A stretch of 48,155 nt of DNA from Polaromonas sp. (GTDB lineage: Bacteria; Pseudomonadota; Gammaproteobacteria; Burkholderiales; Burkholderiaceae_C), in assembly GCA_021731285.1 (NCBI GenBank), contig JAKFXR010000047.1, forward strand, positions 1 to 48,155. The letters are read 5' to 3'. The notes under the pieces are model-generated. The model had not been told where the DNA came from and searched no databases. It was given only the letters and a program-made list of their open reading frames with translations. A program made the translations under genes and the position numbers. The number at the start of each line of letters is the position of its first letter. The first letter of the stretch is position 1. Shown here in pieces: positions 3,018-6,728 of this stretch.

Positions 3018-4142
3018 CTAGCGAGCGCGCCTGGTCCTGACCGCATCTGACAACACTTCGAGTGCGTCGGTCGAATCTTCCCAGCTGATGCAGGCGTCGG
3101 TGATGCTTTTTCCATATTCCAGCGCCTGGGCGTCGTCCTTGCCCGGCGTGAATTTCTGCGCGCCGGGCTTGAGGTGGCTCTCAATCATCAGCCCAAACAC
3201 ATGGCGTGAACCGCCGGCGATTTGCGTTGCAATGTCACGCGCCACTTCACGCTGCTTTTCGTGCTGCTTGGAGCTGTTGGCGTGGCTGCAATCGACCATC
3301 AGTGTCGCCGGCAGTTTGGACGCCTCCAGCTCCTTGCAGGCCGCGGCCACGCTGGCCGCGTCGTAATTGGGTGCCTTGCCGCCGCGCAAAATCACGTGGC
3401 AGTCCTTGTTGCCTTTGGTTTGCACCACAGCCACCTGCCCGTTTTTATGCACCGACAGGAAATGGTGGCCGCGGGCTGCCGCCTGAATGGCGTCGGTGGC
3501 AATGCGGATGTTGCCATCGGTACCGTTTTTGAAGCCAATCGGCGCCGACAGGCCGGAGGCCAGTTCCCGGTGCACCTGGCTTTCGGTCGTGCGTGCGCCA
3601 ATCGCCCCCCAGGCGATCAGGTCACCGATGTACTGCGGCGAAATCACATCCAGAAACTCGCTGCCGGCCGGAAGCCCGAGGCGGTTGATCTCGATCAGCA
3701 ACTGGCGCGCGATGCGCAGGCCTTCGTCGATGCGGAATGTCTCGTCAAGGTAGGGGTCATTGATCAACCCTTTCCAGCCCACCGTGGTGCGCGGCTTCTC
3801 AAAATAGACACGCATCACGATTTCCAGCGTCCCGGTGTATTTTTTGCGTTGCTCCGCCAGACGCCGGGCGTATTCCAGCGCCGCCGCGGGGTCATGGATG
3901 GAGCACGGGCCCATGACCACCAGCAGGCGGTCGTCCTTGCCAGCCATGATGTTGTGGATGTTCTTGCGGGTTTGCGTGATCAGCGACTCAACGGTGGTGC
4001 CGCTGATCGGGAAAAAGCGGATCAAATGCTCGGGAGGTGGCAACACGGTGATGTCCTTGATGCGTTCGTCGTCGGTTTCGCTGGTCTTGTCGACGGGTCT
4101 CGCATACCAGGCGTCGCTGGTCGGGGTGGTTTTGGCATTCAT
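3018..4142 (-). CDS. aroG: 3-deoxy-7-phosphoheptulonate (DAHP) synthase, class I
   Basis: Condenses phosphoenolpyruvate with erythrose 4-phosphate to DAHP, the first step of the shikimate pathway to Phe, Tyr and Trp. The 374-residue product carries the class I AroFGH hallmarks: PEHLIRFFPIS in the N-terminal regulatory arm, VVMGPCSIHDPAAA, KPRTTVGWKGLINDP, GARTTESQVHRELASGLSAPIGFKNGTDG, and MVDCSHANSSK, which includes metal and substrate ligands. The start is ATG 4142, preceded by AGGAAG at good spacing. The upstream in-frame extension passes through a terminator hairpin and is not protein-like. Expression is very probably controlled by the leader peptide and attenuator at 4202-4334. Which aromatic acid inhibits the enzyme cannot be read from sequence alone, so the symbol aroG is by family. 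Confidence 0.95.
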   Translation of the reverse strand: MNAKTTPTSDAWYARPVDKTSETDDERIKDITVLPPPEHLIRFFPISGTTVESLITQTRKNIHNIMAGKDDRLLVVMGPCSIHDPAAALEYARRLAEQRKKYTGTLEIVMRVYFEKPRTTVGWKGLINDPYLDETFRIDEGLRIARQLLIEINRLGLPAGSEFLDVISPQYIGDLIAWGAIGARTTESQVHRELASGLSAPIGFKNGTDGNIRIATDAIQAAARGHHFLSVHKNGQVAVVQTKGNKDCHVILRGGKAPNYDAASVAAACKELEASKLPATLMVDCSHANSSKQHEKQREVARDIATQIAGGSRHVFGLMIESHLKPGAQKFTPGKDDAQALEYGKSITDACISWEDSTDALEVLSDAVRTRRAR

Positions 4143-4201
4143 GGCGGGCTTCCTTTGGAACGAATCAAACAGATCACAAACAAATCGAAAATGAGCAGAA
4201 C

Positions 4202-4232
4202 AAAAAAAAACCGCCGGTTGCCCGGCGGTTTT
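4202..4232 (-). terminator. Intrinsic terminator (attenuator) ahead of aroG
   Basis: On the minus strand AAAACCGCCGG (4232-4222) pairs perfectly with CCGGCGGTTTT (4217-4207) around a GCAA loop, followed by a run of nine T (4210-4202). This is a strong rho-independent terminator placed 60 nt before the aroG start and about 28 nt after the stop codon of an aromatic-rich leader peptide. Its position inside the aroG leader, rather than after the upstream gene, makes it an attenuator. Confidence 0.9.
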
Positions 4233-4285
4233 CAAGATTCTTGTAAGGTACTTTTCTGCTTACGCGAAGATCTCTCTACCGCCGG
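4222..4285 (-). promoter_or_regulatory. Predicted antiterminator helix of the aroG attenuator
   Basis: CCGGCGGT inside the leader-peptide reading frame (4285-4278) is complementary over 8 bp to ACCGCCGG (4229-4222), the 5' arm of the terminator. The leader segment and the terminator 3' arm both carry CCGGCGG, so they compete for the same partner. A ribosome stalled on the aromatic codons just upstream (4319-4296) would leave the first segment free to pair and block termination. A ribosome moving on to the stop codon would disrupt that pairing. The pairing is seen in the sequence; the switching behaviour is inferred. Confidence 0.75.
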
Positions 4286-4334
4286 AGGCGCGTGAGAACC
4301 AAAAGTACGCAAAATAAAACTTCGCAGATGTCAT
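4260..4334 (-). CDS. Aromatic-rich leader peptide controlling aroG
   Basis: A 24-codon frame from ATG 4334 to TAA 4260 begins MTSAK and then carries FYFAYFWF: four Phe, two Tyr and one Trp codon within eight codons. It ends 117 nt before the aroG start and is followed by an intrinsic terminator. This arrangement matches the leader peptides of attenuated amino-acid operons. Having codons for all three aromatic acids fits DAHP synthase, which feeds all three pathways. The Shine-Dalgarno is poor (CAGG only 2 nt from the ATG); a possible promoter at 4342-4370 would start the transcript close to the ATG, so the leader could be translated without a leader sequence. Confidence 0.85.
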   Translation of the reverse strand: MTSAKFYFAYFWFSRASGGREIFA

Positions 4335-4341
4335 GGCCTGA

Positions 4342-4370
4342 AATGTAGCACATGACCGCCCGGCAGCCAA
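4342..4370 (-). promoter_or_regulatory. Candidate sigma-70 promoter for the aroG leader
   Basis: TTGGCT (4370-4365), a 17-nt spacer and TACATT (4347-4342) on the minus strand resemble -35 and -10 boxes. Initiation would fall about 7 nt after the -10 box, next to the leader ATG at 4334. Neither box is a perfect match and no transcript data exist. Confidence 0.35.
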
Positions 4371-4485: not shown

Positions 4486-5061
4486 CTACCCCCGCAGCTT
4501 CTCCCACCAGCGCCTGGCCCGTTGCACGCGTGACTCGTCCAGAGCGCCGGATACAGACTCCACCGCTTCGCGTCCGCACACCTGCTCATACATGTCGATC
4601 AGCAGCATGCCTTCGCCCAGGGTCCGCCAGGCCACGAGTTCGAAGTCCTCAAAGTTGACAATCTGTTTGACGGCCGGGTCGGCCAGTTCCTGCTGATTGG
4701 CCGTCAGCAGCCACTGGCCAATCAGCACCCGGAAGTTGTTGAGCGCCGTCAGATAAGACGCGTATTCGTACAGACCGCGCCAGGTCGGCGTCAGGCTGAT
4801 CACCAGCGCGCGGTGCTCGCGCAAAATGGTCATCAAATCCATCAGGGGCGCGGCCAGCGCGGCGGGCTCCGGTGCGGTTTTCAGATGCGCCAGCACAGAC
4901 TCAATGTTCACCGACAAGCCCGCCATGCCGTCGGCCAGCTGCAACGACTCCTCGTCGGCCATGGCCGAACGCAGAAAGTGGCTCAGCTCGCCAAAATTCT
5001 GGATGCTGGGAAGGTGCGTCGCCGGATCCAGCGGCAGGCGGGAGGCGGGGCCGGTGGTCAT
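4486..5061 (-). CDS. Uncharacterised 191-residue protein
   Basis: A soluble, mostly helical-looking protein starting MTTGPASRLPLDPATHLPS at ATG 5061, 34 nt downstream of tldD on the same strand. The middle contains LMDLMTILREHRALVISLTP and WRGLYEYASYLTALNNFRVL; the C-terminus has a Trp/Arg cluster (RVQRARRWWEKLRG). There is no signal peptide and no motif I recognise. The spacing suggests co-transcription with tldD. The stop codon is only 5 nt from repeat copy 1, which may mark the transcript end. Confidence 0.75.
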   Translation of the reverse strand: MTTGPASRLPLDPATHLPSIQNFGELSHFLRSAMADEESLQLADGMAGLSVNIESVLAHLKTAPEPAALAAPLMDLMTILREHRALVISLTPTWRGLYEYASYLTALNNFRVLIGQWLLTANQQELADPAVKQIVNFEDFELVAWRTLGEGMLLIDMYEQVCGREAVESVSGALDESRVQRARRWWEKLRG

Positions 5062-5095: not shown

Positions 5096-6631
5096 TCAGG
5101 CGGTACCGCCCACGGTCAGACCGTCAATGCGCAACGTGGGCTGGCCAACGCCCACCGGCACGCTCTGGCCTTCCTTGCCGCAGGTCCCAACTCCGCTGTC
5201 AAGCTGCATGTCATTGGCAATCATGGTGACGCGGGTCAAAGCGTCCGGACCGTTGCCGACAATGGTGGCGCCCTTCACGGGATACAGGATTTTCCCGTTC
5301 TCCACCCAGAAGGCCTCGCTCGCAGAAAACACAAACTTGCCCGAGGTGATGTCCACTTGCCCACCGCCGAAGTTGGTGGCATACAGGCCCTTCTTGATGC
5401 TGGCGACAATTTCTTCGGGCGCCTTGTCACCGCCCAGCATGTAGGTATTGGTCATGCGCGGCATCGGCACATGGGCATAACTTTCTCGCCTGCCGTTGCC
5501 GGTGGGCTTGACGCCAGACAGGCGCGCGTTGAGCGAGTCCTGGATGTAGCCTTTCAAAATACCGTCTTCGATCAGCACGTTGCGCTGGCTGGCATGGCCT
5601 TCGTCGTCCACGTTGAGTGAACCGCGGCGGTCGGCAATCGTGCCGTCGTCCAGCACAGTGACACCCTTGGCCGCCACCCGTTGTCCAATACGTCCAGAAA
5701 ACGCGCTCGATCCCTTGCGGTTGAAATCGCCCTCCAGGCCATGGCCAATGGCCTCGTGCAGCAGGATGCCCGGCCAACCGGGACCAAGCACCACGGTCAT
5801 TTCACCGGCAGGCGCAGGGCGCGCATCCAGATTGGTCAGCGCGGCGGTGACCGCATCGTTGACGTACTGGGTGATCTGGGCTTCATCAAAATAAGCCAGG
5901 CCGAAACGTCCGCCGCCGCCGCCAGAGCCCATCTCGCGGCGGCTCACGCCGGCAACCTTCTGCTCGGCGATGACCGTCACACTCAGGCGCACCAGAGGCC
6001 GCACATCGGCTGCCAGCGTGCCGTCGGCGCGCGCCACCATTACCACGTCGTATTCGCTGGCCAGCCCGGCCATCACCTGCACAATGCGCGGGTCTTTGGC
6101 CTTGGCCAGTTTTTCCACCCTCTCGAGCAGCTTGACCTTGGCGGTGCTGTCGAGCGTGGCGATGGGGTCCAGATCCCTGTAAAGCGAGCGGCCAGCAGCC
6201 ACTTTTCGCGCGCCGACTTTGGCGCGGCCCGACCGGGTGTCTGCCGAGATGGTGCGCACGGTACGCGCCGCGTCCAGCAGGGAAGCTTCGGAGATATCGT
6301 CGGAGTAGGCAAACGCGGTTTTTTCGCCGCTGACGGCCCGCACTCCCACACCCTGGTCGATGCTGAAAGAGCCGGTTTTGACAATGCCTTCTTCCAGGCT
6401 CCAGCCTTCGCTGCGCGTGTACTGGAAATACAGATCGGCATCGTCCACGCCATGGGAGGTGATTTCACCCAGGGCGCGGTTCAGATGCGCTTCCGTCAGG
6501 CCAAAAGGCGCCAGCAACAGCTTTTGCGCGATGGCAAGACGACCCGAGGTGGATTCCGAAGTCGGGCGGGCTGCGGCGGCAGCCGGGGCGGACTTGCGCG
6601 CCGATGCCACCGTGGATTTGAGTGAGGTCAT
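5096..6631 (-). CDS. tldD: Metalloprotease TldD
   Basis: A 511-residue TldD/PmbA-family zinc metalloprotease; in enterobacteria TldD acts with TldE (PmbA) in processing peptides such as microcin B17 and in CcdA turnover. The metal-binding HExxxH motif is HEAIGHGLEGDF near residue 292. Other family blocks are DLYFQYTRSEGWSLEEGIVK near the N-terminus and the C-terminal GTCGKEGQSVPVGVGQPTLRI. The start at ATG 6631 (MTSLKSTVASARK) gives an Ala-rich N-terminal arm of about 40 residues. The partner tldE is not in the window, which is usual because the two are often unlinked. Confidence 0.95.
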   Translation of the reverse strand: MTSLKSTVASARKSAPAAAAARPTSESTSGRLAIAQKLLLAPFGLTEAHLNRALGEITSHGVDDADLYFQYTRSEGWSLEEGIVKTGSFSIDQGVGVRAVSGEKTAFAYSDDISEASLLDAARTVRTISADTRSGRAKVGARKVAAGRSLYRDLDPIATLDSTAKVKLLERVEKLAKAKDPRIVQVMAGLASEYDVVMVARADGTLAADVRPLVRLSVTVIAEQKVAGVSRREMGSGGGGGRFGLAYFDEAQITQYVNDAVTAALTNLDARPAPAGEMTVVLGPGWPGILLHEAIGHGLEGDFNRKGSSAFSGRIGQRVAAKGVTVLDDGTIADRRGSLNVDDEGHASQRNVLIEDGILKGYIQDSLNARLSGVKPTGNGRRESYAHVPMPRMTNTYMLGGDKAPEEIVASIKKGLYATNFGGGQVDITSGKFVFSASEAFWVENGKILYPVKGATIVGNGPDALTRVTMIANDMQLDSGVGTCGKEGQSVPVGVGQPTLRIDGLTVGGTA

Positions 6632-6728
6632 GCGGTCATTGTAGGCAGTCTGCCCCGACCCCGCCCCTGCAAGGCTTCTGTCACCGGGACAGGCAGACGC
6701 CCAAAACACCCGCCACTTCAGGCGGTGA

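Follow-up and report, generated by a model that had tools for sequence, protein, structure and literature searches.

The gene aroG of this Polaromonas genome is very likely controlled by a ribosome-mediated transcription attenuator. In the window (the whole stretch of 48,155 nucleotides that we analyzed), the minus strand carries an extended -10 element, seven bases, a leader open reading frame (ORF), a set of pairing segments, a terminator, and nine T, in this order, and then aroG. These parts are conserved among relatives, and both the antiterminator helix (2:3) and the terminator helix (3:4) show compensating changes. The testable sequence and structure features of trp-, phe-, and his-type attenuators are present (an aromatic codon run, an intrinsic terminator, an antiterminator that excludes it, and a protector hairpin at the control codons), and the aroG leader appears to work like those systems. 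The initial annotation had already described the 24-codon ORF, a CCGGCGGT segment, the terminator arms, and the nine T before aroG; we recovered all of them at the same coordinates and with the same letters, and its reading of the leader as an attenuator is supported by the conservation of the parts and by some of the changes in the helices. It had not described the protector strand (UUCUC:GAGAG) or the extended -10 promoter.

All of the coordinates of the unit are on the minus strand. The promoter is TGTGCTACATT (TG-C-TACATT, 4352-4342), and its hexamer ends 7 nt from the start codon of the leader. Given this gap and the lack of a Shine-Dalgarno sequence, we predict that transcription starts at the leader ATG's A or no more than about 2 nt away from it (4332..4336, about 4334), which is upstream of 4260 and so is consistent with the initial annotation, for which a start downstream of that position would have been a problem. 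The leader ORF has 24 codons (MTSAKFYFAYFWFSRASGGREIFA, 4334-4260, stop TAA) and is identified from its sequence and from comparison within the genus and the family. It includes the upstream aromatic codons F6 Y7 F8 (4311..4319) and, based on the conservation of YFWF, a putative control block Y10 F11 W12 F13 (4296..4307) that adjoins and overlaps the protector strand. This strand, segment 1 (UUCUC, 4298-4294), is identified by a bias in Phe codons and by its pairing with GAGAG at 4276-4272, a pairing that recurs across leaders. Segment 2, the 5' strand of the antiterminator (CCGGCGGT, 4285-4278), was identified from the sequence and the alignment and lies within the leader ORF. Segment 3 is the 5' arm of the terminator (ACCGCCGG, 4229-4222), and it can pair with segment 2 to form the antiterminator or with segment 4 to form the terminator. 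Segment 4, the 3' arm of the terminator (CCGGCGGT, 4217-4210), is identified by folding and by pairing across leaders, and nine T (4210-4202) form the U tract of the intrinsic terminator. A Shine-Dalgarno-like sequence, AAAGGAAG (4149..4156), a kind of element that also precedes aroG in most relatives, precedes the regulated gene itself (3018..4142, ATG at 4142), a class I DAHP synthase by profile match.

The predicted energies of the three helices in the window are -11.1 kcal/mol for 1:2, -22.8 for 2:3, and -21.2 for 3:4. The fold of the 134-nt leader was equalled by 1 of 200 shuffles (z -3.5), and the fold of the terminator by none of 200 (z -5.1). In the window, the antiterminator can also gain length when GAGAU (4274-4270) pairs with AUCUU (4238-4234). 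The terminator comes close to being a palindrome, and there is a weak partial match to the model on the plus strand (4179-4232, 28.7 bits). Upstream of the unit, an ORF of 191 amino acids (4486-5061, minus strand) lies between the aroG promoter and an ORF at 5096-6709 that we take to be tldD-like.

The product of the aroG ORF (4142-3018) matches TIGR00034 with 537.9 bits (the cut-off is 173.2) and the AroG model NF006723 with 538.4 bits, which is under its cut-off of 568. It is the only DAHP synthase that we saw in the window's assembly (87.6% complete), and no class II DAHP synthase was matched in that assembly. The other match to PF00793 is a 285-amino-acid ORF on contig C54. From its size and its neighbors, which are presumably pyrG-like and eno-like, we take it to be kdsA and not a second DAHP synthase. 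Having a single DAHP synthase would fit with a sensor that is placed to serve all three aromatic products. Some relatives have further copies (for example, there are three matches in each of genomes G014 and G024).

We infer every kinetic step of the attenuator, as well as its response to amino acids, from the arrangement of these parts. RNA polymerase would start at the extended -10 element, so that the message begins at or beside the leader AUG, and a ribosome would initiate on this AUG without a Shine-Dalgarno sequence. If charged tRNA-Phe, tRNA-Tyr, and tRNA-Trp are ample, then the ribosome would reach the stop codon and cover segment 2, the 3:4 terminator would form, and aroG would be off. 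If one of these tRNAs is short, then the ribosome would stall in the YFWF block and mask segment 1, which would free segment 2 from the 1:2 protector hairpin. The 2:3 helix could then form before segment 4 is made, and transcription would read into aroG. If the leader is not translated at all, 1:2 and 3:4 should both form, leading to termination.

The unit is widespread. AroG had a match in 55 of the 61 genomes of the genus that were searched, and all 30 loci that we took from the genus have the same leader arrangement before aroG. A covariance model built from these 30 leaders (R1) matches 366 of 399 genomes of the window's family, from 135 of its 141 genera (E of 0.01 or better), with one place per genome in most of the listed genomes and two in a few. 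Removing duplicates from 178 family leaders left 174 distinct ones. Of these 174 loci, 163 have a DAHP synthase motif downstream; for the other 11, the sequence was too short or the motif was not found. Alignment A5 includes 147 of 148 leaders (L119 was left out because its start call was over-long); stretches L118 and L122 were not needed. We also picked the best 80 of 581 relatives by AroG alone, which makes them closely related to the AroG of the window (Polaromonas, Acidovorax, Variovorax, Ramlibacter, Curvibacter, Hydrogenophaga, Rhodoferax, and others), and all 79 with enough upstream DNA have the leader and the terminator (the upstream stretch of L308 was too short). The comparison of aroG orthologs that the initial annotation had proposed came out in its favor: the aromatic-rich frame is present in all 174 family leaders, the terminator is kept, and the 2:3 helix shows some compensating changes.

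Beyond the family, a broader covariance model built from 147 leaders (R2) matches 80 of 300 genomes of the order, from 48 of 135 genera; nine of the 80 genomes belong to the window's own family. We read 41 loci outside the family (L184 and L193-L232; a weak second match in L212 was disregarded), and every one has a leader with at least four F, Y, or W codons and a DAHP synthase motif downstream. At the level of the class, 9 of 274 genomes match, and three of these are from the window's family. We inspected three of the other six. In two of them (L326 and L327, from genomes G886 and G734, both of family f63), a DAHP synthase gene is preceded by a leader and a terminator of this same type; f63 lies in the class but outside the order. 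For the third, L328, no DAHP synthase motif was found downstream. In six loci (L208, L216, L217, L222, L326, and L327), the terminator arms start with GCCGCC and end with GGCGGC, so G-C replaces the outer A-U pair.

R1 had no match in 33 of the family genomes. Among the 20 of these that were listed, 8 gained a match with R2. We searched 8 of the other 12 listed misses with AroG: three had no match to aroG, three had a partial match, and two are true losses. In these two genomes (G262 and G335, loci L319 and L318, two species of one genus), aroG is present and the whole stretch from promoter to terminator is gone, while a third genome of the genus (locus L155) keeps the unit between similar flanks. 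So the loss of the unit does happen, and it happens as a whole, which we count in favor of the attenuator. In both L318 and L319, aroG follows almost directly after the upstream gene, which is presumably tldD-like. Without the unit, aroG in these two genomes may be unregulated or co-transcribed.

All 174 family leaders contain at least five F, Y, or W codons. F codons are present in all 174, Y codons in 172, W codons in 163, and all three in 161. The median leader has five F codons, two Y codons, and one W codon, so Phe is dominant. Next to the protector strand, 119 of the 174 leaders have precisely YFWF as their four codons. Position by position, starting at the aromatic codon closest to segment 2 and moving upstream, the commonest residues are F (163), W (143), F (155), and Y (130); at some of the control positions, F, Y, and W interchange. 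Given the usual footprint of the ribosome, an A site on any of the YFWF codons leaves segment 1 covered and segment 2 free, which is why we consider this block to be the likely control codons. A ribosome that stalled at the upstream FYF codons would probably be too early to mask segment 1. The choice of Phe codon also differs: TTC is used in 154 of 163 cases for the last one, with which segment 1 begins, whereas the cluster's remaining Phe codons are TTT in 459 of 596 cases. This bias suggests that segment 1 is under constraint as RNA.

The initial annotation had proposed that all three aromatic tRNAs are sensed at once. Within the family, the codon content fits this idea, and we consider three-way sensing in the window's family to be plausible. 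Even there, though, Phe codons dominate, and the idea does not carry over well to other leaders: just 17 of the 41 leaders outside the family contain a Trp codon (F is present in 41 and Y in 39). Trp input would then be mainly a trait of the window's family.

The initial annotation had also placed the antiterminator strand inside the coding part of the leader, after the control codons, as it is in the window (4285-4278). Among the family leaders, segment 2 begins inside the leader ORF in all 167 in which the core could be placed (7 of the 174 could not be placed). Within the genus (30 loci), the leader peptide is strongly conserved, including SSASGGREI/T after the aromatic block. Beyond the genus the tails vary, even in their frame (for example, HRTGGGEASA, VPGGREASA, NAPAVESSERT, RVTDGRES, and NAPAVESSERTCK), while the RNA core GGCGG..GAGAG is mostly kept. 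Over segment 2, 144 of the 174 leaders are in frame 0, 21 are in frame 2, 2 are in frame 1, and 7 are unassigned. Segment 2 is retained as RNA even though the peptide is read across it in different frames.

Most likely, the family leader is translated from a leaderless message. In the family, 162 of 174 leaders have a TGnTAnnnT that ends 6-9 nt upstream of their start codon (7 nt in 104 of them); the pattern is missing at the expected distance in the other 12. It is found 6-8 nt before the start in all 79 AroG-selected loci (from the best 80 of 581 relatives). As a background, 1.1% of the 24,831 ATGs in all loci, leaders included, have TGnTAnnnT at that distance. Across the 162 leaders with the pattern, bases beyond those that define it are also conserved (yGTGCTACATT), and their profile shows no visible -35 signal. 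No family leader (0 of 174) has a Shine-Dalgarno match of at least five bases before its start, compared to 136 of 163 for aroG (scored at whichever candidate start fits best) and 43 of 870 positions picked at random. It is the -10 element next to the start codon, together with the lack of a Shine-Dalgarno sequence, that points to a leaderless mRNA. Outside the family, 14 of the 41 leaders have the pattern 6-8 nt before the start and 27 do not have it at 6-9 nt, so the leaderless reading is weaker there. Leaderless mRNAs have been reported in Burkholderia cenocepacia (PMC4603805) and in Cupriavidus metallidurans (PMC7563307); we did not find aroG in the main text of either of these papers on transcription start sites in relatives.

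Do the competing helices covary? For these analyses, segment 2 was located by alignment columns. Over 147 leaders, 96.1% of cells in the UUCUC:GAGAG helix (segment 1 with its partner) are paired and four cells changed on both sides, while 97.1% of cells in the 3:4 terminator helix are paired. Taking 1:2 and 3:4 together, six cells changed on both sides, versus 0.8 in shuffles (0 of 500). Inner pairs of 1:2 are poorly kept, two of the four being formed in just 83 of 130 and 85 of 124 cases. We saw a loose trend between the base after GAGAG and the base before CTC, and because it is no more than loose, we do not claim that this helix covaries.

For the 2:3 helix, 82.9% of cells are paired over the 147 leaders (81.9% in shuffles), and 13 cells changed on both sides, versus 2.8 in shuffles (0 of 500). 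With a score of 0.065, covariation exceeds that of shuffles (0.052) and of slid versions of the helix (at most 0.048). Sliding by one to three columns lowered the pairing to 15.6-58.6%. Slides of +1, +2, and +3 gave 12, 13, and 17 cells that changed on both sides, so this count by itself does not fix the register; the percentage paired and the score do. Taken singly, two of the eight pairs did better than every one of 300 shuffles and one was borderline (14 of 300). The remaining five gave no signal, among them the second pair, which varies without compensation in the family (149 paired versus 149.8 in shuffles). The last pair (U-A) is absent in 95 of 147 leaders.

The clearest example involves the terminator arm ACCGTCGG, which is found in 10 sequences. 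Nine of these have an A in segment 2 (CCGACGG in eight and CCGACGA in one), so the 2:3 helix regains an A-U pair in 9 of 10 cases. The terminators of these sequences keep only a U-G wobble, so the change in segment 2 compensates the antiterminator alone. Similarly, both of the sequences with the terminator arm ACCGCTGG have an A in segment 2. Outside the family, 28 sequences have an A at the second-pair position of segment 3 (as in ACCGCCAG). Of these, segment 2 has T in 16, C in 5, A in 4, and G in 3, and segment 4 has T in 25. Unlike inside the family, the second pair of 2:3 does follow segment 3 here.

These compensating changes in 2:3 are few independent events. We built an AroG tree from a 214-row set (from which L205 was left out by the T-run rule), keeping 202 rows and leaving out the 12 without a usable AroG fragment. 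At the three compensating positions, the fewest changes on the tree are three, two, and six. Sign tests on independent pairs lean the same way and, with too few pairs, do not reach 0.05. As to stability, the median energies across the 174 leaders are -10.3 kcal/mol for 1:2, -22.6 for 2:3, and -19.8 for 3:4, and 2:3 is stronger than 1:2 in every leader. Also, 173 of the 174 antiterminator segments fold from end to end, but as they had been trimmed to the pairing arms beforehand, this adds no independent support.

If the leader encoded an arrest peptide, as with TnaC, then a free aromatic amino acid or the nascent chain would stall the ribosome, rather than a shortage of charged tRNA. The strong conservation of the peptide in the genus, including the tail after the block, is what this idea would predict, but outside the genus the residues and the frame of the tail change around an RNA core that mostly stays, and F, Y, and W replace each other at some control positions. 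We rejected an arrest peptide because neither the tail nor its frame is conserved, and we give it very little weight. Alternatively, the terminator might be controlled by a metabolite-binding riboswitch or by a protein-binding site, with the ORF being incidental. The highly conserved RNA segments and the terminator could be viewed that way. We consider this the least probable of the alternatives because an incidental ORF is hard to reconcile with the aromatic codons in each of the 174 family leaders; also, none of the Rfam 15 gathering scores was reached by the window or by 20 diverse relatives, and a non-systematic look noticed no aptamer-like domain. A third possibility is that the terminator mainly serves to make a trans-acting small RNA or a leaderless mRNA, as with rnTrpL/peTrpL of Sinorhizobium, and that the control of aroG is secondary. 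The unit does have a conserved promoter-like element and a stable terminator, and its leaderless architecture resembles that reported for S. meliloti trpL (PMC7298713). However, in the inspected loci from the family, from the order, and from the AroG-selected set, the unit was followed by a DAHP synthase in every case with a readable downstream gene; the compensation in 2:3 makes sense for the control of readthrough; and the peptide tail is not conserved across the family. We think that a primary role in trans is quite unlikely.

The attenuator could respond to Phe only, like pheL, and its Tyr and Trp codons would then play no part in the control. This would suit the dominance of Phe codons (a median of five per leader) and the leaders that lack the other codons (within the family, 11 of 174 lack W and 2 lack Y; outside it, W is missing from 24 of 41 and Y from 2). 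In C. glutamicum, the aroR leader contains Phe-Tyr-Phe, yet the passage on it in a review reports a response to Phe and no response to Tyr (PMC11802643). Given this result and the leaders without Trp, we do not take three-way sensing for granted. On the other side, the block nearest to segment 1 is YFWF in most family leaders; 143 of 174 have W immediately ahead of the final aromatic codon, and 130 of 174 have Y three codons ahead of that codon. Overall, Phe-only control is possible, but we doubt it. The attenuator as a whole may be viewed more broadly as a three-input OR gate in the window's family that is built as a leaderless cassette, with two-input versions in relatives. The OR gate is suggested by the Tyr, Phe, and Trp codons lying side by side where a stalled ribosome would mask segment 1. 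This joint reading is tentative, and it falls a little short of what we would call probable. If it is true, then a shortage of any one of the three charged tRNAs would open the committed step of the aromatic pathway; the promoter, leader, and terminator would work, and be lost, as one cassette on a leaderless message; and two-input versions of the same ancient switch would be found in the Trp-poorer relatives, both elsewhere in the order and in one family of the class.

The attenuator offers a testable answer to how a large group of bacteria controls entry into aromatic amino acid synthesis, a step at which E. coli has three isozymes along with repressors (PMC11802643). It adds a widespread cis-regulatory RNA with several handles: a leaderless start, a control block of four codons, and a segment that is common to two helices. 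It may also show how a single leader can be positioned to read several amino acids at the common entry of a branched pathway, and it is an example of a segment kept as RNA under a shifting peptide frame. We found no description of this aroG leader in the literature, with most subscription journals lying outside our coverage.

Among the Rfam families, the best comparison is with the phenylalanine leader family, Phe_leader (RF01859). Phe_leader has an SD-led leader and lies before pheA rather than aroG. The full model matches the window at 4201-4335 on the minus strand with 32.6 bits (E 6e-4), and because the gathering score is 55, we rejected membership in this family. A sister family could be made in Rfam.

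C. glutamicum belongs to a different phylum than the organism of the window. Its aroR leader of aroF is the closest functional parallel, as it too is a ribosome-mediated attenuator before a DAHP synthase gene (Neshat et al. 2014, via the review PMC11802643). The passage in the review mentions no Trp codon, and the leader in the window has one. The initial annotation was right that the aroG leader differs from the leaders of pheA and trp operons, but since aroR was already known, the aroG leader does not represent a new kind of attenuator. In Acholeplasma, the uORFC-13-1 motif before aroF also combines a short ORF, which has at least one Phe codon, with an apparent terminator ahead of a DAHP synthase gene; it comes from another lineage, is a different model, and has a ribosome binding site (PMC8632094). 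The trpL attenuator of S. meliloti, an alphaproteobacterium, resembles the aroG leader in that it is a transcription attenuator whose leaderless RNA begins with the leader ATG; it depends on Trp and lies before trpE(G) (PMC7298713). Finally, trpL of E. coli and the aroG leader share the logic of the 1:2, 2:3, and 3:4 helices. In E. coli, trpL responds to Trp only, its leader is SD-led, and segment 2 comes after the stop codon, whereas in the aroG leaders segment 2 begins inside the ORF.
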